The notes under the pieces are model-generated. The model was not told where the DNA came from, ran no database searches, and was given only the letters and a program-made list of their open reading frames with translations. This document shows, in pieces, positions 7,125-52,995 of a DNA stretch of 64,000 nt (position 1 is its first letter; every line of letters begins with the position of its first letter). The translations under genes were made by a program, and so were the position numbers. Source of the DNA: Apoderus coryli (Eukaryota; Arthropoda; Insecta; Coleoptera; Attelabidae); contig OU452199.1 in the NCBI GenBank assembly GCA_911728435.2, positions 15,572,860 to 15,636,859 of the forward strand. The letters are read 5' to 3'.

Positions 7125-7350
7125 CCTGGAATTACACTCGTGCATCAAAATAACCAGATAATTTTGCATTCGAGCGTGTTGTCTTGGAAAAACTACATTC
7201 GGGCATTTTCATATTCTGTTAAAAGACTCCTCCATCTTCGGTGTCGGACTCTTTCTCCAAAATATGAAAATGCACTCATGCAGTTTTTAGACAACACGCT
7301 GTCATGTAAAATTATCGGTAATTTTGATGCACTTGTGCAATTACTTCCGA
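7125..7350. repeat. Imperfect foldback (MITE-like)
   Basis: The left side (TTACACTCGTGCATCAAAAT, GCATTCGAGCGTGTTGTCT, GCATTTTCATATT) is mirrored on the right (AATATGAAAATGC, AGACAACACGCTG, ATTTTGATGCACTTGTG). The arms are about 100 bp and imperfect, around a centre near 7240. Confidence 0.7.
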
Positions 7351-7405
7351 GAAGAATCAAATATTTTGCCCTTTAAAATCTGAGTTTCGTCGAGAGATGT
7401 TTACT

Positions 7406-7500
7406 GTACAGGGTGAGTAAAACTCGTTGAGAGAAGTTCTTAAATGGGATTAAATAAGGTCAATTTTATCCGACATTTCATTTTTTTTTCAAATTTATTT
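7406..7500. mobile_element. End fragment of the same family as 1161-1719
   Basis: TACAGGGTGAGTAAAACTCG followed by TTCTTAAATGGGATTAA matches, in inverted orientation, the right end of the element at 1161-1719. The remainder is missing. Confidence 0.5.
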
Positions 7501-8202
7501 TAAGTTACGAACAACAGAAATGATGAAAATTTAAAGTATCGCTCAATTCCAAAAGATAAACACGAAGATGTACTGAAGTGATTTTCAGTGGGACAAAAGA
7601 CCACAAAATAAAAACAGAACTTCAAGCCATTCGCGTGAAAAATCATAACATACTTATTTCAATTATTACAACTATTATAATCTCGCATTTAATTTTGTTT
7701 ATTGAAGCCACAAAATGTACCTTCGTATAATTATACCACATAATGTAGGTATTTTGTCTGTATATTTTATTTCTGATAATGGCTTTGAACTTAAATATAA
7801 TTGTTTAATTTCAATGGTTAACTTTGCATAAAAATTCTATAATATCCTAAATACAACTTTCTATTGCAAAAAATGCTTTGATATATTAAATCATCTAATT
7901 GAAATTTATATCAGGTGAGACCATTATTTTTTAATTAAGTATAATACCCCAATTTCTGACACATTGACACGCAAGACTTCCCACCATTTCGTTCAGTTTA
8001 CCTAATTGGTGGCGCCTCTTATACAAGTATTTAAAATATTTTTTCTCTAGCACATGTGAAAATTATCTTATGCAAAATTTAAATTGTCAACAAAGTAAAT
8101 GATGCTTAACAATTTCTAGTGCCTTATACACTACTAGACCAAAAACCACATTTATATCAAGATTGGTTATATCTTTTGCTAAATTATATTTTATTATTTT
8201 AT
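7501..8202. other. Unassigned AT-rich intergenic DNA
   Basis: No gene, RNA or structured repeat recognised. Confidence 0.4.
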
Positions 8203-18884: not shown

Positions 18885-19621
18885 ACCATGGACACCGAAG
18901 AAGAATTAAAAGAGGAATTCTACTACCAGCTTAATAGAGTGACTCCGACAAGATCATCCTGCTAGGAGACTTCAACGCTCGAGTTGGTCGGCCTAATTCC
19001 ATCGGCAAAGAATTAGTAGGAAAGTGTAACTCCCACCAAACGTGCCGAACAAGATCTTGTATTACAAACACACTTTTGAAACAAAAATACAAGTTTAAGA
19101 CGACATGACAACATCCAATGCCCTGGCATATGATTGACTACGTAATTGTTCGCGCTGTAACCAAAATGAAGGAAGAGCATCAAAGGTTTAACGAGTGCTC
19201 ATGATGGCTGGACTGAATGACCGACTTGTGCGATCCAGTATGACCCTACGTCTACCTGCAAAATGACCACAACAATGAACGAAACTAATAAGGCGAAAGC
19301 TTAACATCGTGTATGCCTAAAGGACAACCGAGCCAAACTGTGATTCCAACAACACCTGAAGGACAAGCTCCTGGAAGAATATCTGGATGATATTGAAGAA
19401 CACTGGTCGTGGTGCTCTCTGCTGGTGAGGAGACGCTATATAGGTTATGTGCCACGAAAACAGGAGTAGGTCGACGAAAATGATGAAGAGATAGAAAGAC
19501 TAATAGACAGTAACCCTAAAGTATCTTTCAAATGGCGAAGTCTGAAGTACAACGAACATTATTATGTTCAATAACCAAAATATGGAACACCGGAACCGTC
19601 CCTGCGGAAATCCGCGATGCC
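18885..19621 (+). pseudogene. RTE-like LINE relic, 5' part (endonuclease to start of RT)
   Basis: Shifting frames give DTEEELKEEFYYQLNRV, LGDFNARVG, ITNTLLKQKYKFKTT, PWHMIDYVIVRA and finally ITKIWNTGTVPAEIRDA. This is the block order of the RTE-type endonuclease and the first RT motif, often annotated in insects as craniofacial development protein 2-like. Many stops and frameshifts show long decay. The sequence stops abruptly at the junction with the 10.57-kb insertion, and the next RT block resumes at 30193. Confidence 0.75.
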
Positions 19622-19740
19622 CTGTTGAAAATGCCAGATAGAACCATATAAAAAAAAATTTAATATGGATTAATACGGTTCATAGTGTGTATTTGAAACA
19701 GCAATTCCAAATTAAAAACATATTTGAAATAATTAGTATG

Positions 19741-21420
19741 AATCAGGATTGCCCACTAGAACCTGTTTACATCTAGAACGGATTTAATATGGTTTTATAA
19801 GCAAATCCAAATGCAAAAGCTATTGGGATTAATTTGTAGTTATCAGTTTCTATCAGGATTGCCCAATAGAACCTGTTTACATTTAGAACGGATTTAATAT
19901 GGTTTTATAAGCAAATCCAAATGCAAAAGCTATTGGGATTAATTTGTAGTTATCAGTTTCTATCAGGATTGCCCAATAGAACCTATTTACATTTAGAACG
20001 GATTTAATATGGTTTTATAAGCAAATCCAAATGCAAAAGCTATTGGGAATAATTTGTATTTATCAGATTCTATCAGGATTGCCCAATAGAACCTGTTTAT
20101 ATTTAGAACGGATTTAATATGGTTTTATAAGCAAATCCAAATACAAAAGCCATTGGGATTAATTTGTAGTTATCAGTTTCTATCAGGATTGCCCAATAGA
20201 ACCTGTTTACATTTAGAACGTTTTAATATGGTTTTATAAGCAAATCCAAATGCAAAAGCTATAGGGATTAATTTGTATTTATCAGATTCTATCAGGATTG
20301 CCCAATAGAACCTGTTTACATTTAGAACGGATTTAATATGGTTTTATAAGCAAATCCAAAAGCTATTGGGATTAATTTGTATTTATCAGTTTCTATCAGG
20401 ATTGCCCAATAGAACCTGTTTACATTTAGAACGGATTTAATATGGTTTTATAAGCAAATCCAAATGCAAAAGCTATTGGGATTAATTTGTAGTTATCAGT
20501 TTCTATAAGGATTGCCCAATAGAACCTGTTTACATTTAGAACGGATTTAATATGGTTTTATAAGCAAATCCAAATGCAAAAGCTATTGGGATTAATTTGT
20601 ATTTATCAGATATAATCAGGATTGCCCAATAGAACCTGTTTACATTTAGAACGGATTTAATATGGTTTTATAAGCAAATCCAAATGCAAAAGCTATTGGG
20701 ATTAATTTGTATTTATCAGATATAATCAGGATTGCCCAATAGAACCTGTTTACATTTAGAACGGATTTAATATGGTTTTATAAGCAAATCCAAAAGCTAT
20801 TGGGATTAATTTGTATTTATCAGATTCTAGCAGGATTGCCCAATAGAACCTGTTTACATTTAGAACGGATTTAATATGGTTTTATAAGCAAATCCAAATG
20901 CAAAAGCTATTGGGATAAATTTGTAGTTATCAGATTCAATCAGGATTGCCCACTAGAACGGATTTAATATGGTTTTATAAGCAAATCCAAATGCAAAAGC
21001 TATTGGGATTAATTTGTAGTTATCAGTTTCTATCAGGATTGCCCAATAGAACCTGTTTACATTTAGAACGGATTTAATATCGTTTTATAAGCAAATCCAA
21101 ATGCAAAAGCTATTGGGATTAATTTGTAGTTATCAGTTTCTATCAGGATTGCCCAATAGAACCTGTTTACATTTAGAACGGATTTAATATGGTTTTATAA
21201 GCAAATCCAAATGCTAAAGCTATTGGGATTAATTTGTAGTTATCAGTTTCTATCAGGATTGCCCAATAGAACCTGTTTACATTTAGAACGGATTTAATAT
21301 GGTTTTATAAGCAAATCCAAATGCAAAAGCTATTGGGATTCATTTGTAGTTATCAGATTCAATCAGGATTGCCCACTAGAACCTGTTTAAATCTAGAACG
21401 GATTTAAATGTAAATCCCTG
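19741..21420 (+). repeat. 110-bp tandem array, about 16-17 units
   Basis: The anchor GCCCAATAGAACC recurs at 19861, 19971, 20081 and 20191, with a strict 110-base period. Some later units are a few bases shorter, and the unit beginning about 20947 lacks part of its body. The first and last units share diverged variants (GCCCACTAGAACC and ATCTAGAACGG), while internal units are nearly identical, a pattern expected from homogenisation by unequal exchange. Confidence 0.95.
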
Positions 21421-22650
21421 TATATTATTATAAATAAATTATAACTCTTCAATTTTGTTGAAAAACGTTAAGGTCTATAGTATTATAGAATTACTTACCT
21501 CTTCGTCGAATTAATTTTCATTTATTATTATTATTTTTTATATATGTCTAGAATTATTGTTTTAAAAAACCATAACTTTGGGATTTGTGGAAGCAAAAAA
21601 CAGTCTGCACTCGGTTACATGTACTTTTTTTCTATTTTAAAATTACATGTCAATATTTATCTCAATGTTCACCTAAAACAAAATATAAAATATTAATAAT
21701 ACTTAATCGATGAGTAGAAACAAGTACGTTTTATCACTTCACCAAACAATTTTTTTAATGTATAGGCGCGTTTTGTTAACAATGTTAGCATCTTCAAAAA
21801 ACGGTAGCAAAACATGTTTCGTAAGTAGAAACTGTAATCATTAACATTAGGTACATACAAAAACAAAGATATCAAAATCATAATTCAATTATGTTTTATT
21901 TAGAACATATTAATAGTTCTTTGAGCTAACATATATTTTTTGTCATACATATATTATGTAAAATGATGAATACTAAATTTTTACGCGAAATTAATAATCA
22001 TAATATACCTAATTATTTAATTTATATCAGGCAAGTGTCTAGTCTTTTAAAATCACCACACTGGCGTAGGCGTAAAGAAGTTTAAAGACGTCTTGTCTTG
22101 GGTTTCAATAATAATCTGATTATGGAAATGTTTTAGAAGATATATATTGTGAACTAAATAAGTAGCTATTAAAGTTTTAGGGCTCCATAATATATTGCGC
22201 GGCTAAGTTTAATGAAAATTATTTTTGGAATGTTATCATAAATAAGTGTTTTAGGTCATTTTATACGTAAATAAGTACTTGTTGAACCAAATTTGGTAAA
22301 CCATACTACTGAACATTTCTAAGTTCTGAACTTTTGGCAAAATAAAAAAAAACATAACTACCTAAAAATCTTACTGGGCTTGCCTGAAGACAGCAGATAC
22401 ACCACATAGCCACGTAGTAAACTTGGTCTACATACGCGATATAAAATGAGTGCCTTAGAGAATCCCGTGAAAAGTGTATAAAACGGATAAAAAGTAAACC
22501 CAATATTTTTGTCGACTATAAAATACTAATAAAAAAAAAAGATGTTAGGACTTTTTTTATAGAAAAAATTATAACATAAAATTGTTATTGAATAATACTA
22601 ACTTTCCGTTCCTCATGTCTTATTGTCGAAAATATCTTCACTCTCTACGT
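21421..22650. other. Unassigned interior of the 10.57-kb insertion
   Basis: AT-rich, without recognisable coding or structured sequence. Confidence 0.35.
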
Positions 22651-22961
22651 TTATTTCTTCAGAGGTTTCCGTATTCTCTTTGAATTATTTTTCATCCCAT
22701 CTAAAAAAAATTTCAAGTCCATGACTAACTTTTTGTGGAAAAGTTAGACATTGGAATATTAAAATATCAGTTATGAAAATACTGTTAAGCAGTTCATTAC
22801 ATAAACAATCCTTTTATTTAATTGGTACTTACCACAGCTCTGCCGGGGCGCCCTATTAATATCGGATACCTTTATCCCAATCCAGGTATTTACTTTTGAT
22901 AACTGGGTACGCATGGCGAATTCATCAGTCCCTTTTTTAATTAAATAAAATGTTGTAATAT
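22651..22961 (-). CDS. Two candidate 3' exons of an unknown small gene
   Basis: Exon 22833-22961 follows a consensus acceptor (GCATTTTCAG) and ends at a strong donor (GTGGTAAGT). Exon 22651-22700 follows TTTTTTTAG and ends in TAA. Both are phase 1 at the junction, so they join in frame. The joined product ends DITTFYLIKKGTDEFAMRTQ..., SDINRAPRQSC, then DGMKNNSKRIRKPLKK with a basic tail. The upstream exon was not identified. I do not recognise the protein. Phase agreement supports real splicing but is not proof. Confidence 0.35.
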
Positions 22962-23532
22962 CTGAAAATGCAAAACGAATCAGTTCCATGTATTGGCTGC
23001 AGATATGCCATCTAAATATGCCCAAACAGAAATAAAATTTGAATAAATAGGCCATTCTTACAGCGAGCGGTGTACAATTTTAATAGCAAAGTAAAAAACA
23101 AATGTCACCACAAATATGTTTTATATTAACGCCTTTATAGAGACACGTTTCGAGAGTATAATACACTCATCATTGGCCTGCAGCAACCTAATGCTGGAAA
23201 ACCTAACAATTAAACATTCACATTTCAATGCAGAACCTGTACTGGGGAGCATTTCAGAGTTTAAATGGTAAAACGTAAGTATTTACAATACAAACATTGT
23301 AATGTCCTCGGACAGGGTTCTTGTTAATTTTCCAGACTGAATAAAAGATATTATAATTAGGTGGATGAGACAGAAATGTACTTGAAGATTAATATTGAAA
23401 TATAGAAAGAACAACAAATAAGTCCACAAACAAAACCTTAAATTGCAAACGTATAAGAATCATAGAACAACGGCAGACTTCTTATCGCACTGAATACAAA
23501 ATTTGTTTAAAAACATTGCAAATAATAATAAA

Positions 23533-23673
23533 TTAAATTATTGGTGTGGAAATAAAATAAACTTCCTGAATTGGTTTTTTTAACTTTGTGTCATAAGAAA
23601 AATCTGCCTCATGATCATAATGAAACCTATAAAACGGTAGCAAGTGAGAACCCAAAAGTTCTATTTTAGTCAT
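23533..23673 (-). CDS. Small unknown ORF, 46 residues
   Basis: A frame starting MTKIELLGSHLLPFYRFHYD and ending YFISTPII before TAA has mixed, protein-like composition in an AT-rich setting. It lies between the two exon pairs on the same strand. No family was recognised. It could be an exon, a small peptide or chance. Confidence 0.2.
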   Translation of the reverse strand: MTKIELLGSHLLPFYRFHYDHEADFSYDTKLKKPIQEVYFISTPII

Positions 23674-23740
23674 GATATCAATGATACTTGAACGTTCAAA
23701 ATTATACGGTTTTCAAAATACCAAAGCTACCTTCTAAGGA

Positions 23741-23778
23741 GAAACTGTGTTCTTGGTAAGGACCAAGAACACAGTTTC
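23741..23778. repeat. Perfect 17-bp hairpin
   Basis: GAAACTGTGTTCTTGGT, a four-base loop (AAGG), then the exact complement. It lies about 70 bases upstream of the 46-residue ORF on the minus strand. Confidence 0.95.
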
Positions 23779-23857
23779 TACAAAAATAGCAAGCAAACAT
23801 TTTATAAACTACTAAGTACTAGATGGATAAAGCTAAATAATATGATTTCACTCTTAC

Positions 23858-24261
23858 TTAGTTTTGAAACAACGTCGAAGACATTTTTTGCAACCATTGA
23901 ACATTTAATAACTCATTTGTTGCTTTCAGTTGTTCCCTCAAATTATTTAGTCTCATTGGCTTTCGTGAATTTTCTTTCAGAATTTCCTCTGGGTTTAACA
24001 TTTTAATTCGCTTTTCCCTTATCTGCGTTTTTTTCGCTTATCTGCGTTTTCAGAGCATCAATATCGTCTAAAACAACATGATTTATTTAGATTTACAGAC
24101 GAATATAAATTTAAAAAGTAATCAATAATAAAACTAGCAAAAATACCTTCAATATATAAAATACAAAGGTTTGTAAGTTTTTTATATCTTCGGTGATCCA
24201 ATCCAATCCAATCTCCTGTACTATATCATCATCAAGGAATCTGAGATAAGCATACCCCATA
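23858..24261 (-). CDS. Candidate two-exon small gene, about 92 residues, unknown
   Basis: Exon 24147-24261 follows TTTTTAG and begins TATGGGG; its ATG opens MGYAYLRFLDDDIVQEIGLD. It ends at AAG|GTATTT in phase 0. Exon 23858-24022 follows AACGCAG and reads IREKRIKMLNPEEILKENSR ... LREQLKATNELLNVQWLQKM to a TAA. The joined frame is open and the second exon looks helical or coiled-coil. The upstream acceptor at 24068 would give stops, so the choice of acceptor is mine. A donor at 25118-25119 (TTCCAG|GTAAGC) could end a 5' UTR exon. The family is not recognised. Confidence 0.35.
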
Positions 24262-26658
24262 CTAAAAAGAGTAAAAAGTTCTTAAATATTGTCATTAATT
24301 CTCAATTCTTAATATAATAATAAATTATCATTAATTCTTTAGATCTTCTTTCATCTCCCAAAAGTCTTAAATGTGTGTAAAAATTGAAGAAAATTTAATA
24401 AAATAAAAATTGTTAAAATAACTACGAATAATGTTCCATATTTCACCGTTTTGGAAAATTTAACACATTTGTTTTATTAATTGATTGTGGTGAAATATCT
24501 ATTATTACAGTACCTATATGTACAGGGTGTATTCTGGTTGATGGTATACACTTTGTTTTGTTGTTTTGGGAAAAGTAATTAAGTACGAATATTTTGAAAA
24601 TGTAAGTAATTACTTAAGTTGGATTTTTTCGATATAGTTAATTAGGTAGACAACTATTAAAACGTTTTTTTCTTTATTAACGTTGATAAAGTTCACAAGA
24701 ATAAATGTATTCTACCACTTCACCCAAATTACATATTATAGTGACAATATTATTGTATGCTGATAGATTAGGTATTAGTACAGCTAATACACACAATTAG
24801 CTGTCGTATTAGGTTGATCTGAATAATCACTTACATTTTCAAAACAATCGTATGGTTGCTTGTCGCAAAACTTCCAATATACCATCGACCAGCAATCAAC
24901 CTGTATCTTATACAAATAACCATAGGTACCAAAGATTAATATACATAATATATTATTTATATTAATCTTTGCCTATACTGTGTATTTAATACATTGCGTG
25001 CGTACTAATGATAATGAACACTATAATATTATATTAGCAGAGCATAGGCAATGTTTTTTATTCCTTATAAAGACAATGATATACCTTGGTAAAAAGAATA
25101 ATTTATTTGCTTACCTGGAATCAATTTTTTCACATGGTCGTAAGAAATCACAATACAACACACAACACAAAGTTATTTAGTTATTTTATGCTGTTAGATA
25201 GTCATAGATGAAAGATATTATAATATATATTTAGGTTAGCATTTACACTTATTTTATTACACAATTGAGATAGAGTAATTAACATATTATTGATAATGAA
25301 AAACAAAACATAAACCGACGCCATAACAAAACACGTGTTGTTTGTGTGTGGCTGTGTGGTATTAGGTTAGATTAAGAAAAAAAATTGTACCGCAGCAGTG
25401 TTGTCATAGGGAATTATCAAATTGTAACATATTTTATTCGACAATTCCAAAATCAAGATTATTACAGACTTTGTTGTCTGATTATTATGCATGAGTTTAT
25501 TCAGTTGACGATAGTTTTTTATTGTTTTCTGGAATATATATATAATGACGACATAGAGATTGCAACAGATGTTTTAATTACATTTAGATATTTTGACTTT
25601 TTATATAAAGGCAATAACAAAATATGCGCCATAGCAATTAATATAATAATAGATAATAGGTATATAAATATACGCTATTATTGTTATAGATAGAGAATAG
25701 TAGGTATTAAATAAGCTACCAAAATTGAGTTATGACGACATACATGTTGTATTCACACACACTTCTGGATGTGATTGTATTAATATTCATGTCTTCACCC
25801 ATTCTAGAATAATTTTGAAATATACTATGATATAATTCTATACCGTGTCAGAAGTCAGCTGCAATCGGCAACACTGAACTCTGAACTATTCACAAGCGTC
25901 AAGCATAAACCACTATACCTACTTACTAGTTGCCAGATTTACGTCAAATCCGCAGTTTTGTCGCGATTTTCTTAATGAAATATTCATATATATTTGAGAT
26001 ATTTATTATAAACTAAAATATAAATGGTGATATATTTTACAGGTTGTCCATTATTTCAATTTTAGTTTTTTTCTTATTAGTTATTTTTTTATTTATTTAG
26101 TTATCATGTCATAGGCAAAACCAGGAGCAAATGTATGTTCATGCCAACGCAATTGTGACTCTTTGGATATACTTTGCCATTTTTTCTTATGTAAAAAATG
26201 TAATTAAATTTTGAATACCTATCTGTGCGTTAGTAAAAATTACTATGTATATAATTATGTATATAGGTAGGTAATATCAAAGATTAATGTCTTTGGTAAT
26301 AGTGAAGACTATACCTCGGCAACACTGAGTATTAGTAAATGGTCAGCGTTGCCGGTTGTAACATAATAATTATTATTACAATTTTGCACTAAATCTGGTA
26401 CTAAATTTGTACTGTAAGATGAATTTAATGAATCTGTACTAGGATTTTTTATATACTAAATTGGCCAACAATTGACCATTTTTCTTGGTGACGTAACATA
26501 ATATGTTGTAAAATCTGAGCAGCTATAACATTATAATATTATGTTTAAGCATGTTATCGGCAACAGTGGATACGGTAAGAAAATCATAACTATTTTTTCA
26601 AAACACAAAAAACAAAGTAGTAGTTGTCTTTATAAAGACAATGACCTCACCTATCTAT
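24262..26658. other. Interior of the 10.57-kb insertion, mostly unassigned
   Basis: It contains a TACAGGGTGTATTC terminus-like motif at about 24522 and several copies of CGGCAACACTGA or variants near 25868, 26315 and 26560, with an inverted one near 26343. Short AT-rich open frames (for example 25385-25693) have no recognisable content. Confidence 0.35.
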
Positions 26659-27098
26659 AGGGTTATTCTTTCGTAGTGATTGGTCTGAACAAGTGAATGT
26701 GATTAAACTGAATGTGATTATACTGAACTGAATATTTGGCGAAACCGAAAGATCATCTTTTTTGTGATTGTCTTTCACTTAACCTCGAAAACAACCAAAT
26801 CTGCTCTGAAAACTGGAAAATTATTTCTTCCATGATATTATTATCCATGTTTTAAACTTTTACAATTTATTGGTTTGATTCGAAATCATATGCCAATTAT
26901 TATCTCTCAATACTTTTAGAGGTTAACTGTTAACTGAACGAACTAACCGGTACCTAGAGGTTGATCAGTAAGCGGCAACGGGGGTAGGAATTTTAATCAG
27001 TTTGTTAGAAGTGACCGATGTCGAAACAATACGCACAATCGTGAATGAACTGACAATTTTCAGATTGTTCACTTAGTTCAGTACGAAAGAATAACCCT
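26659..27098. mobile_element. MITE with AGGGTTATTCTTTCGTA termini
   Basis: The 17-bp ends at 26659-26675 and 27082-27098 are exact inverted copies. The interior has no coding capacity. TA-rich bases flank both ends. It lies immediately left of the 182-bp array. Confidence 0.75.
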
Positions 27099-27194
27099 TA
27101 CATTATTAATGTTTAGGTATATATTTTATTTTTTGCAATAATTTCTTAAAATAAGGAGCTCAAGAAATCTGCATTATTTAGGATAACGGACATG

Positions 27195-29905
27195 AATGAA
27201 ATTTTTTATTGAATCCGTATTGAAACCAATCGCATCGTGGAAATTCTTATTCAGCAATTCTATATTAAACGCAATTGAAATAAGCAGTTTTATGCCGCAT
27301 AAAAACTAATTCAAACTGATAAAACCAAATTAAACATTTGATTTGGAATACCTTATTGAAACCAATAAATTCCAAATAAAGAATTTCTTATTAATCCATA
27401 TTGAAACCAATTCGTTTCATGGTAATTTTTATTCAGTACTTCCATATTAAACGCAATTGAAATAAGCAGTTTTATGCCGCATAAAAACTAATTCAAACTG
27501 ATAAAACCAAATTAAACATTTGATTTGGAATACCTTATGGAAACCAATAAATTCCAAATAAAGAATTTCTTATTAATCCATATTGAAACCAATTCGTTCC
27601 ATGGTAATTTTTATTCAGTACTTCCATATTAAACGCAATTGAAATAAGCAGTTTTATGCCGCATAAAAACTAATTCAAACTGATAAAACCAAATTAAACA
27701 TTTGATTTGGAATACCTTATTGAAACCAATTCGTTCCATGGTAATTTTTATTCAGTACTTCCATATTAAACGCAATTGAAATAAGCAGTTTTATGCCGCA
27801 TAAAAACGAATTCAAACTGATAAAACCAAATTAAACATTTGATTTGGAATACCTTATTGAAACCAATAAATTCCAAATAAAGAATTTCTTATTAATCCAT
27901 ATTGAAAGCAATTCGTTCCATGGTAATTTTTATTCAGTACTTCCATATTAAACGCAATTGAAATAAGCAGTTTTATGCCGCATAAAAACTAATTCAAACT
28001 GATAAAACCAAATTAAACATTTGATTTGGAATACCTTATTGAAACCAATAAATTCCAAATAAAGAATTTCTTATTAATCCATATTGAAACCAATTCGTTC
28101 CATGGTAATTTTTATTCAGTACTTCCATATTAAACGCAATTGAAATAAGCAGTTTTATGCCGCATAAAAACTAATTCAAACTGATAAAACCAAATTAAAC
28201 ATTTGATTTGGAATACCTTATGGAAACCAATAAATTCCAAATAAAGAATTTCTTATTAATCCATATTGAAACCAATTCGTTCCATGGTAATTTTTATTCA
28301 GTACTTCCATATTAAACGCAATTGAAATAAGCAGTTTTATGCCGCATAAAAACTAATTCAAACTGATAAAACCAAATTAAACATTTGATTTGGAATACCT
28401 TATTGAAACCAATTCGTTCCATGGTAATTTTTATTCAGTACTTCCATATTAAACGCAATTGAAATAAGCAGTTTTATGCCGCATAAAAACGAATTCAAAC
28501 TGATAAAACCAAATTAAACATTTGATTTGGAATACCTTATTGAAACCAATAAATTCCAAATAAAGAATTTCTTATTAATCCATATTGAAAGCAATTCGTT
28601 CCATGGTAATTTTTATTCAGTACTTCCATATTAAACGCAATTGAAATAAGCAGTTTTATGCCGCATAAAAACTAATTCAAACTGATAAAACCAAATTAAA
28701 CATTTGATTTGGAATACCTTATTGAAACCAATAAATTCCAAATAAAGAATTTCTTATTAATCCATATTGAAACCAATTCGTTCCATGGTAATTTTTATTC
28801 AGTACTTCCATATTAAACGCAATTGAAATAAGCAGTTTTATGCCGCATAAAAACGAATTCAAACTGATAAAACCAAATTAAACATTTGATTTGGAATACC
28901 TTATTGAAACCAATAAATTCCAAATAAAGAATTTCTTATTAATCCATATTGAAACCAATTCGTTCCATGGTAATTTTTATTCAGTACTTCCATATTAAAC
29001 GCAATTGAAATAAGCAGTTTTATGCCGCATAAAAACTAATTCAAACTGATAAAACCAAATTAAACATTTGATTTGGAATGCCTTATTGAAACCAACAATT
29101 CCCAAATAAAGAATTTCTTATTAATCCATATTGAAACCAATTCGTTCCATGGTAATTTTTATTCAGTACTTCCATATTAAACGCAATTGAAATAAGCAGT
29201 TTTATGCCGCATGAAAACTAATTCAAACTGATAAAACCAAATTAAACATTTGATTTGGAATACCTTATTGAAACCAATAAATTCCAAATAAAGAATTTCT
29301 TATTAATCCATATTGAAAGCAATTCGTTCCATGGTAATTTTTATTCAGTACTTCCATATTAAACGCAATTGAAATAAGCAGTTTTATGCCGCATAAAAAC
29401 TAATTCAAACTGATAAAACCAAATTAAACATTTGATTTGGAATACCTTATTGAAACCAATAAATTCCAAATAAAGAATTTCTTATTAATCCATATTGAAA
29501 CCAATTCGTTCCATGGTAATTTTTATTCAGTACTTCCATATTAAACGCAATTGAAATAAGCAGTTTTATGCCGCATAAAAACGAATTCAAACTGATAAAA
29601 CCAAATTAAACATTTGATTTGGAATACCTTATTGAAACCAATAAATTCCAAATAAAGAATTTCTTATTAATCCATATTGAAACCAATTCGTTCCATGGTA
29701 ATTTTTATTCAGTACTTCCATATTAAACGCAATTGAAATAAGCAGTTTTATGCCGCATAAAAACTAATTCAAACTGATAAAACCAAATTAAACATTTGAT
29801 TTGGAATGCCTTATTGAAACCAACAATTCCCAAATAAAGAATTTCTTATTAATCCATATTGAAACCAATTCGTTTTATGGTAATTTTTATTCAGTAATTC
29901 CATAT
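27195..29905 (+). repeat. 182-bp tandem array, about 15 units, with higher-order structure
   Basis: The anchor ATGCCGCAT recurs about every 182 bases; two units are about 40 bases shorter because they lack the segment between ACCAATAAATTCC and the next GAAACCAATTCG. Private variants repeat at fixed larger distances. CCTTATGGAAACC, the short junction and ATTGAAAGCAATTCG each recur after 683 bases. GGAATGCC with CCAACAATTCCC, and ATTGAAAGCAATTCG again, recur after about 727-728 bases. Blocks of four units have therefore been duplicated as wholes. Confidence 0.93.
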
Positions 29906-30192
29906 TAAACACTATTCATTTTAACCTATTAAATCCGTATAAAACCCACTTTGTTTTGAATCTGTAATGGCATATTAGATCTAATCATATTTAAAACTTA
30001 TAGAGACCAATACAATTCCATTGATGTGTTTTATATGTATATCCAAATAAACCCAAACCATATTGAATCATATAAGATTACTATTAAAATAACATAGAGC
30101 TTGTCAAAGCCAGATTAAAACCTACATTCACTTATAGATACTTATAGATCCAGATCAAGTTTTAATATGATTCTATACGGTATTTTCAACAG

Positions 30193-30600
30193 GGTGCCTA
30201 TCAATTTTCACTATATTTAAGAAAGCAGGGGATAAGTCCGTATATGTGGAAAGTATCGTGGTATCTTTCTCCTCTCCATCGCCGGAATGGTCCTTGCAAG
30301 AATTTTGTCAAATCGAAGAAGGGTGCTCACGAAATCAAAAGAGGTACAAGGATGATGTTCTTCAGACCAACATAAAGAACTGTGCATGGCTTAGATGTGA
30401 AGAACAATTGGGAGCACATCGCGAACGATAATTTTGTGTAAAATTCGTGGCTCAAGGATCGGTCGGTTTAATTTAGTCATTTTAGGACTTACAACAGAAA
30501 TCCCTGAGTTGGAGGAATTCATACCCGTCAGCGAGTGAATGGTGATGATACATATAACTGTGCCTATTTCATCGATGAGATTTACCATCTTTAAAATTTA
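30193..30600 (+). pseudogene. RTE-like LINE relic, 3' part
   Basis: Frames give FTIFKKAGDKSV, CGKYRGISLLSIAGMVLARI and LSNR: the RT block that should directly follow EIRDA at 19615. Then, after loss of the middle of RT, come RYKDDVLQTNIKNC and LGAHRER, which match the C-terminal region of the same LINE type. KIRGSRIGRFN at about 30440 resembles the CGSRIGL zinc-finger-like tail. The internal deletion predates or is independent of the 10.57-kb insertion. Confidence 0.7.
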
Positions 30601-30737
30601 ATTATTATTTGATTTTTGTTATAAATAATATATCTCACCCAAACACTATAAACAAAATAATATTTTGCGTTAAAGTATATTATACAAATTTAATTTTCAA
30701 TACATTGCCTACACTTTTATTCGATTTTTATTCAAGT

Positions 30738-30809
30738 GCGATGGTGGTGTAATGGTCAGCATAGTTGCCTTCCAAGCAGTTGATCCGGGTTCGATTCCCG
30801 GCCATCGCA
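30738..30809 (+). tRNA. tRNA-Gly (anticodon TCC)
   Basis: A 72-base cloverleaf with a perfect 7-bp acceptor stem (GCGATGG / CCATCGC). The anticodon loop CTTCCAA sits in a TTGC/GCAG-type stem. The T arm is intact with GGTTCGATTCC as the B box, and the A box is TGGTGTAATGG. It is followed by a run of T, the usual pol III terminator. No intron. Sequence and folding fit a functional eukaryotic glycine tRNA. Confidence 0.97.
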
Positions 30810-30814
30810 TATTT

Positions 30815-38052: not shown

Positions 38053-38561
38053 TTTCAGTTTTTACTAATCACACCATGTATAATACAACAAAACATAATT
38101 TGAGGTGAGCGACTAACGTTAGATATAATTTATAAATAAAAATTAAACTAAATTAAGGTACTTTTAAGTATTCTGTTTTTCCCACAAAGAAACGAAAAAT
38201 GTAAAGCCCCGTAATAAGGTAGGTAGGTTGGTTTGTAATCTTTATTATTCGTATTTGTTTGTCTCTATAAATTTGAGGTTATAATTATTCAAATAACCCA
38301 ATCACAGATTTAATACAGCAAAGATTGTGTATAGTAATCTTTGAATACAGTAAATCTTTGTCCCAACATAGTTAGATATCTGTTGTAGAAAAAAAAATTA
38401 CTAGTCAGACTATACCCCAACAGATGGCACCGCTTGACTATTTAAAATCTGTATATACGAGGACTAATCACACCCTTTACTACGTTACCAAAGTCGATAT
38501 TATAATAAGTAGGATTTTCAGGTACTGTATTGTTTTTATCAATTTTAGGGATAGTATAAGC
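38053..38561. promoter_or_regulatory. Presumed 5' region of the Rab gene
   Basis: This is the sequence upstream of the Rab start codon. No core promoter motif can be identified with confidence. It contains a small inverted repeat of CAAAGATT near 38320-38345. Confidence 0.25.
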
Positions 38562-38730
38562 ACAGTTTAATGTACAGTTACTTCACTTCGTGTCGGAATG
38601 TTTTATCTCTCTGTCTTCAAAGCAATTCGCCGCTACTATACTTATAGCACAGTTTAATATACAGTTACTTCACTTCGTGTCGGAGCCTTTTATCTCTTTG
38701 TCGACAAAACAATTCGCCGCACTTATAATT
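38562..38730. repeat. 84-bp tandem duplication
   Basis: AGCACAGTTTAATRTACAGT, then TCACTTCGTGTCGGA, then CAATTCGCCGC appears twice with a period of about 84 bases. Confidence 0.85.
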
Positions 38731-38995
38731 ATAGTATAGTATCTTATGGTATATATAGATATAGTATAACATAGTAGCGGGCCAGAAATGTAGCTGGGAT
38801 TACGACGAGTCGATGCCGTTTTTAGCGTCTACTGACCCTTCGTATCTATAGTTATTATTCTATGCTTATAGTATAGTATCTTATGGTATATATAGATATA
38901 GTATATATAGTAGCGGGCCAGAAATGTGGCTGGGATTGCGGCGAGTCGATGCCGTTTTTAGCGTCTACTGACCCTTCTTATCTATAGTTATTCAA
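38731..38995. repeat. 137-bp tandem duplication
   Basis: ATAGTATAGTATCTTATGG ... GCGGGCCAGAAATGT ... GCGTCTACTGACCCTTC appears twice with a period of about 137 bases. The second copy is broken at its end by the LINE at 38996-41805. Confidence 0.88.
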
Positions 38996-52559: not shown

Positions 52560-52995
52560 CATATCTAAAATCTAAAAATTGGCAAAGCGTGCATTTGTTA
52601 AATTAAGACTGTAAGTAGTGAACCATATGTCCTTATTAAAAATATATGTGAGAATGACTAACACTCCGTCAGAGCCGTACTATATATTTTTTTCTTTCGC
52701 CAGCAACTTTTAACTGCTGACCTCATATCTAAAAATTGGCAAAGCGTGCATTGTTTAAATTAACACTGTAAGTAGTCGACCATATGTCCTAATTAAAATA
52801 TATGTCAGAATGACTAACACTCCGTCAGAGCCGTACTATATATTTTTTTCTCCGGCCAGTAACATTTAACTGCTGGCCTCATATCTAAAAATTGCCAAAG
52901 CATTCATCGTTTAAATTAATACTGTAAGTAGTAAACCATAATATGTACTTATTTAAAATATATGTCAGAATGACTAACAGTCCGTCAGAGGCACT
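52560..52995 (+). repeat. 156-bp tandem triplication
   Basis: TCTAAAAATTGGCAAAGCGT, CTGTAAGTAGT, CATATGTCC and ACACTCCGTCAGAGCCGTAC recur at about 52571, 52728 and 52884, with a period of 156-157 bases. The third copy is cut short where mariner-like sequence begins. Confidence 0.9.

Follow-up and report, generated by a model that had tools for sequence, protein, structure and literature searches.

A 10,575-bp insertion in a LINE relic of the beetle Apoderus coryli is very probably a non-autonomous copy from a family of giant CACTA/TRC-type transposons

What kind of mobile DNA has split an old long interspersed nuclear element (LINE) is the question raised by a locus on contig OU452199.1 of the beetle Apoderus coryli (assembly GCA_911728435.2). 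The stretch analysed, referred to below as the window, is 64,000 nt long (positions 15,572,860 to 15,636,859) and lies on C5, one of the 129 contigs (428 Mb) that make up the genome searched here. An initial annotation, made from the window alone, had noted a block with inverted ends, some 10.57 kb long, and had left it unclassified as a possibly undescribed family. It can in fact be classified, since an open frame for a tnp2-type (Transposase_21) transposase is present in longer copies that have the same ends. The CCC ends, a 2-bp duplication and this transposase together place the block in the animal CACTA/TRC family, the first two being published marks of such elements (PMC1636069). With high confidence we regard it as a non-autonomous member of a family of giant cut-and-paste DNA transposons of the animal CACTA type (TRC/EnSpm, CMC superfamily).

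The block and its inverted ends were confirmed, both by the terminal inverted repeats (35 bp, 86% identity) and by the existence of other copies. The element has CCC at its start, GGG at its end and the dinucleotide TG on either side. Its borders had been set at 19622 and 30192, each of which is 2 bp too far in; the true limits are 19620 and 30194, and the CC preceding CTGTTG and the GG following CAACAG are part of the element rather than of its flanks. The earlier remark that no recognised transposase lies inside is right for this copy: only four stop-to-stop frames of at least 80 residues fall wholly within it (84–105 residues), and a Pfam scan of two of the four matched no family.

Searches of the genome gave 353 exact matches to a 14-base end (five for the reversed control) and 247 to a 31-base extended end (none for the control). 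The longer pattern is cleaner but blind to diverged ends, while the figure of 353 overstates the size of the family, because part of the 14-base matches fall within another repeated coding sequence, as did four of the first eight loci inspected (L001, L002, L005 and L006). Among the first 100 of the 353 listed matches, 38 convergent pairs were counted, and both flanks were obtained for 36 of them; a 36-kb pair (C1:17980k/18015k) was excluded from the pairs, its ends being L005 and L006, and the pairs C7:20948k and C7:21051k lie outside the 36. The copies had been selected by CTGTTGAAAATRCC, and the two bases beyond it played no part in the selection. These outer bases are CC/GG at both ends in all 36 copies, giving inverted repeats that start with CCC, and directly outside CCC...GGG an identical 2-bp duplication is found in 35 of the 36 (TA 20, TG 3, TT 3, TC 3, AT 2, CA 2, AG 1 and CG 1). 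Identical flanks of 3 bp occur in one copy, and of 4, 5, 6 or 8 bp in none of the 36. Two of the 36 (C5:21524k and the L060 copy) have common flanks, leaving 35 independent sites.

A second listing, drawn from the first 100 of the 247 extended ends and overlapping the first set, contained 40 convergent pairs after 20 unpaired ends had been dropped, and 36 of these pairs have equal dinucleotides. In 2000 shuffles of the partners, 10.8 pairs were equal on average and never more than 19. Copy lengths in this listing range from 6.1 to 24.7 kb, with a median of 10.5 kb; transposase-bearing copies measure 19–25 kb, and most others about 6–13 kb. Thus the suggestion that the block is a mobile insertion belonging to a repeated family is well founded, and copies bounded by the same ends, which the initial annotation had proposed to look for, were found many times over. 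The 6-bp duplication read from the window (GATGCC/GGTGCC) has to be replaced by one of 2 bp: none of the 36 copies has 6 bp duplicated at those borders.

The state of the site before insertion was examined with a query in which both flanks were joined at a single TG. Only the best 40 of 883 candidates were scored, so that the counts are a lower bound; at least 60 genomic matches were obtained, comprising the two halves in the window, 38 that span the junction (77–86% identity) and 20 elsewhere in the query. All eight of the junction-spanning paralogues that were fetched show an unbroken GATG|CC at the join, and small gaps a few bases past it are differences within the LINE. Uninterrupted paralogues, the empty sites for which the earlier reading had called, are therefore present, and that reading of one LINE relic split by the block holds. 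Since the junction is gap-free, both pieces belong to one element, and what has been added is the transposon plus one TG.

Three copies (19,063, 24,680 and 21,723 bp) have the ends of the window element together with TA duplications. Over long aligned blocks they are 98.5–99.9% identical, save for one 0.9-kb array block at 93.8%, and each carries open frames of 157 and 742 residues, the latter without a single difference among the three. A genome search for the 742-residue frame, with the best 60 of 98 candidates scored, revealed at least six full-length open copies, one broken copy at 97–98%, and distant relatives. The frame matches the Pfam families Transposase_21/tnp2 (E=1.8e-6, 27.7 bits) and DUF4218 (E=2.5e-4), and 21 of 31 homologues of the transposase match Transposase_21 at E<=0.1. 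Its closest relative is an 837-residue protein of the leaf beetle Phaedon cochleariae (46% over 97%, E=2.7e-204); the remaining named matches are mostly from Hymenoptera. Long open frames of 693–721 residues, 29–32% identical to the transposase, were also seen at C1:27160973-27162055, C22:7956448-7957482 and C16:12260936-12261922, and they probably represent other families of the same kind.

The 742-residue frame has the sequence IDYMHTVILG, which is the eumetazoan motif [LVI]DX[LM]HX3LG, and M385, H386 and G391 of this motif are invariant across 20 aligned sequences. The same alignment shows no variation at D295 or E231 and almost none at D210. DeMarco and colleagues described for animal TRC transposases two aspartates about 80 residues apart as well as the [LVI]DX[LM]HX3LG motif (PMC1636069), and D210 and D295 may be these two aspartates. 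The predicted fold of P0001, the closest homologue of the transposase of the L019/L020 element, is RAG1/Transib-like, and the model has a C-terminal BAH-like domain that Pfam did not detect and that gave a separate structural match. The comparison with RAG1 and Transib is by structure only, at 9–14% identity, and the absence of other fold families from these matches is no evidence against them.

These results bear on what else the element might be. An undescribed class, unrelated to known superfamilies and making a 6-bp target duplication, is what the window alone would suggest, GATGCC and GGTGCC being alike at five of six bases, but the survey of 36 copies and the empty-site paralogues both refute such a duplication and the longer same-ended copies encode a tnp2-type transposase, so that this explanation is very improbable. 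The preponderance of TA (20 of the 35 equal sites) might point to a Tc1/mariner-type element. These duplicate TA only, however, while the other 15 duplications are different dinucleotides, and the encoded protein matched Transposase_21 and DUF4218 with no Tc1/mariner family in the Pfam result; the chance that the element is of this type is practically negligible. The 6-bp duplication of Polinton/Maverick elements was seen in none of the 36 copies, nor was the 5-bp duplication of RAG1/Transib, though the predicted transposase fold is alike. A plant-type CACTA does not fit either, the ends here being CCCTG and not CACTA and identical 3-bp flanks being confined to the one copy. Segmental duplication or ectopic exchange, and not transposition, could also conceivably have been the main means by which the copies multiplied, and one pair in the set of 36 and two in the set of 40 do have both flanks in common (only 7 bases per side were compared in the 40). 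The other listed pairs differ in their flanks, and almost every one of them shows the same 2 bp on both sides; we consider it highly improbable that this was the main mode of spread. Two cases, C5:21523k with 21600k and C7:22370k with 22434k, in which the short flanks are identical and the lengths almost so, are probably segmental duplications that include the element.

The tandem arrays near the two ends require separate consideration. They had been described as a different satellite near each end; their sequences do differ, but they are not unrelated, as mirrored motifs are common to both. The motifs TTTAATATGG and TGGTTTTAT read inward from both ends in all 16 complete copies and outward in none. 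Ten 8-mers are common to the two repeat units when both are read inward, compared with a shuffle mean of 1.4 (none of 2000 shuffles gave as many), while none is common in the opposite orientation. Longer words give a weaker contrast, with 9-mers matched by eight of 2000 shuffles and 10-mers (two common) by 43. The two satellites look like halves of one mirrored subterminal repeat system comparable to the subterminal repeats of CACTA elements. In maize En/Spm the TNPA protein binds subterminal repeats, which act in cis (PMC2613891), and by analogy the array motifs may bind the transposase or a partner protein. It is quite possible, though we lean away from it, that the element is a CACTA-type transposon in which the arrays are only passenger satellite, grown by replication slippage or unequal exchange and with no role in transposition. 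Array size does vary several-fold (9–40 left and 6–25 right copies of TTTAATATGG among the 16), and a satellite captured close to the 3' end has been reported for one plant CACTA (PMC8978399). Against passenger status stand the inward orientation of the same motifs in both arrays, the excess of common words over shuffled units, and the finding that the listed 110-bp units travel with the element: a 49-base piece of this unit has 1,598 exact genomic copies, the first 100 in the list all come from C1, and 84 of these fall within end-bounded elements while the remaining 16 are clustered at a single place, some 9 kb away from an element end that has no partner. In a more elaborate proposal the satellites would be mirrored arrays of binding sites, amplified and kept by selection, for a transposase with a RAG1 fold and a BAH tail; non-autonomous copies would compete for transposase by array length, and the BAH-like tail would steer insertion or silencing via histone marks. 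This seems to us unlikely.

The interior of the family was surveyed in 36 copies, of which 16 were complete (nine of them chosen as long, and so not a random sample) and 20 were probed with a 701-base piece. Twenty-three are of the window type, ten have a 3.0-kb fragment (or the tested part of it) in place of the middle of the window copy, and three bear the transposase. The fragment is whole in two copies (L009:4336-7354; L014:4472-7483) and was detected by the 701-base piece in eight more; six of these eight pieces are 100% identical to the reference copy, and the rest 99.9% and 99.0%. On its minus strand, with introns kept, it contains a piece of a DUF4806 gene (E=2.2e-7, exons joined by eye) and the beginning of another tnp2-like frame, which differs from the first and was identified by eye, Pfam not recognising it. 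Pfam applied to single frames of this cargo gave nothing above the cut-off. A nested transposon was sought in the outer 500 bases, which have no inverted ends (best match 9 bases), and without inverted ends of its own the cargo is more likely to have been captured. It looks like a multicopy fragment capture of the Pack-TIR kind. For animal Pack-TIRs, capture has been proposed to occur during repair or template switching (PMC8277862), and the cargo may have arisen in the same way. Divergence over about 2.1 kb outside the arrays (gaps omitted) was 0.00–1.51% in pairwise comparisons of nine of the 16 complete copies, the other seven having been dropped for want of a single aligned block above 1.8 kb; the window copy differs from its nearest copy by 0.19%. 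Frames on the minus strand of the L019/L020 element (about 9.2–11.1 kb) resemble by eye the start of a BEN-type protein and a hAT C-terminus, likenesses that may indicate more captured pieces; two other frames from this stretch gave no Pfam match above the cut-off.

Several observations weigh against the assignment to CACTA/TRC, or against parts of it. With the 19-kb copy the window copy has both ends and several inner blocks in common (80–88%) but not the transposase, and with no more than this common to the two it is not a simple recent deletion of that copy. The Transposase_21 match lies slightly under the Pfam cut-off of 28.6 bits, and bounding ends were confirmed for three of the six open 742-residue frames. 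An end-bounded copy of 19.2 kb (C10:28138627-28157805) has no transposase match among the candidates scored, so that length alone is no proof of autonomy. The 2-bp flanks are unequal in one of the 36 copies (TA/AT) and in four of the 40 of the second listing. Finally, the three copies that bear the transposase lack TTATCAGTTT in their left arrays, and hence this motif is not general and not every common motif can be essential.

For a CACTA/TRC element the insertion would have proceeded as follows. Transposase from the 19–25-kb relatives would be supplied in trans to the window copy, which was presumably mobilised in this manner, and would recognise both the inverted repeats with their CCC ends and the motifs that recur, facing inward, throughout the two arrays. 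The excised element would then be inserted elsewhere with a stagger of 2 bases, which would duplicate 2 bp of the target, TA more often than any other dinucleotide; the target hit in the window would have been a TG within the old LINE copy. The family may be active at present.

CACTA transposons are best known from plants. The closest parallels in animals are the TRC elements (SmTRC1 of Schistosoma and the TRCs of Tribolium and Aedes; DeMarco 2006, PMC1636069), which have CCC inverted repeats, a 2-bp direct repeat, Transposase_21, the [LVI]DX[LM]HX3LG motif and truncated copies, SmTRC1 having also a tandem-repeat region. The Tribolium element is about 5.2 kb and that of Aedes 9.2 kb, and the passages describing them mention no mirrored subterminal arrays (PMC1636069), whereas the elements found here reach 19–25 kb and have 110- and 182-bp arrays. 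Spongebob, also CACTA/TRC, is alike in the CCC inverted repeats and 2-bp duplication of its Hydra element and in having non-autonomous insect relatives; it differs in size (5.8 kb for the Hydra consensus, 0.43–0.50 kb in the insects listed), and its description as far as consulted includes no satellite arrays (Tang 2015, PMC4298943). Among plant elements, the 20.5-kb soybean Tgmt* is similar in its very large size, tnp2 transposase and asymmetric subterminal repeats, but has CACTA ends, a 3-bp duplication and subterminal repeats that are apparently short motifs and not long arrays (PMC2613891). 'Jozin' of Chenopodium has mirrored tandem-repeat zones at its ends, captured gene fragments and a satellite array near one end; it differs in its plant host, CACTA ends and 3-bp duplication, and in that the satellite it captured is found only near the 3' end (PMC8978399).

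Plants are thus already known to have giant CACTAs that carry subterminal repeats, pieces of captured genes and arrays of satellite (PMC2613891, PMC8978399), but among the open-licence papers searched no earlier description was found of a giant animal CACTA in which each end has a long array mirroring the other. What is new here is the size, the long arrays and the gene-fragment cargo, the underlying CACTA/TRC kind being already known. The beetle thereby provides an animal genome with a young CACTA family whose elements are of plant-like size and have long mirrored end arrays; it comprises at least six open transposase frames alongside numerous non-autonomous copies. What subterminal repeats do, how satellites grow within transposons and how gene fragments are captured can be tested here in an animal, and the family shows a satellite-like repeat carried through a genome by a DNA transposon.

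Table. Features of the transposon copy and its target site, in window coordinates.
Feature	Position	Strand	Basis
Very probable non-autonomous CACTA/TRC-type DNA transposon copy, 10,575 bp	19620..30194	+	36 paired copies, junction coordinates, 8/8 fetched empty-site paralogues
Left terminal inverted repeat, begins CCCTGTTGAAAATGCC	19620..19654	+	35-bp imperfect inverted match, 86%
Right terminal inverted repeat, inward CCCTGTTGAAAATACC	30160..30194	-	35-bp imperfect inverted match, 86%
Target-site duplication TG, left copy	19618..19619	.	Paired copies, junction coordinates, paralogues
Target-site duplication TG, right copy	30195..30196	.	Paired copies, junction coordinates, paralogues
Left subterminal array, ~110-bp units, inward-facing TTTAATATGG and TGGTTTTAT	19742..21407	+	Tandem Repeats Finder (TRF); motif positions; 16/16 complete copies
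Right subterminal array, ~182-bp units (TRF also 137- and 319-bp periods), same motifs inward	27200..29910	-	TRF; motif positions; 16/16 complete copies
Inner stretch common to window element and 19-kb transposase-bearing copy (there 7177-7892), 88% identical	22576..23290	.	BLASTN
Inner stretch, whole or partial in window-type copies; 3.0-kb fragment instead in two complete L014-type copies	24008..26100	.	
Left part of interrupted LINE relic (target), stretch tested	19380..19619	+	Joined-flank genome search
Right part of same LINE relic, stretch tested	30197..30382	+	Joined-flank search; 8/8 fetched paralogues gap-free at join

Elsewhere in the window, other short tandem arrays (87-, 136- and 156-bp units) were observed at 38559-38992 and 52570-52990, with no visible link to the element. 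A tRNA-Gly (TCC) gene is located at 30737-30810, slightly past the right LINE fragment.

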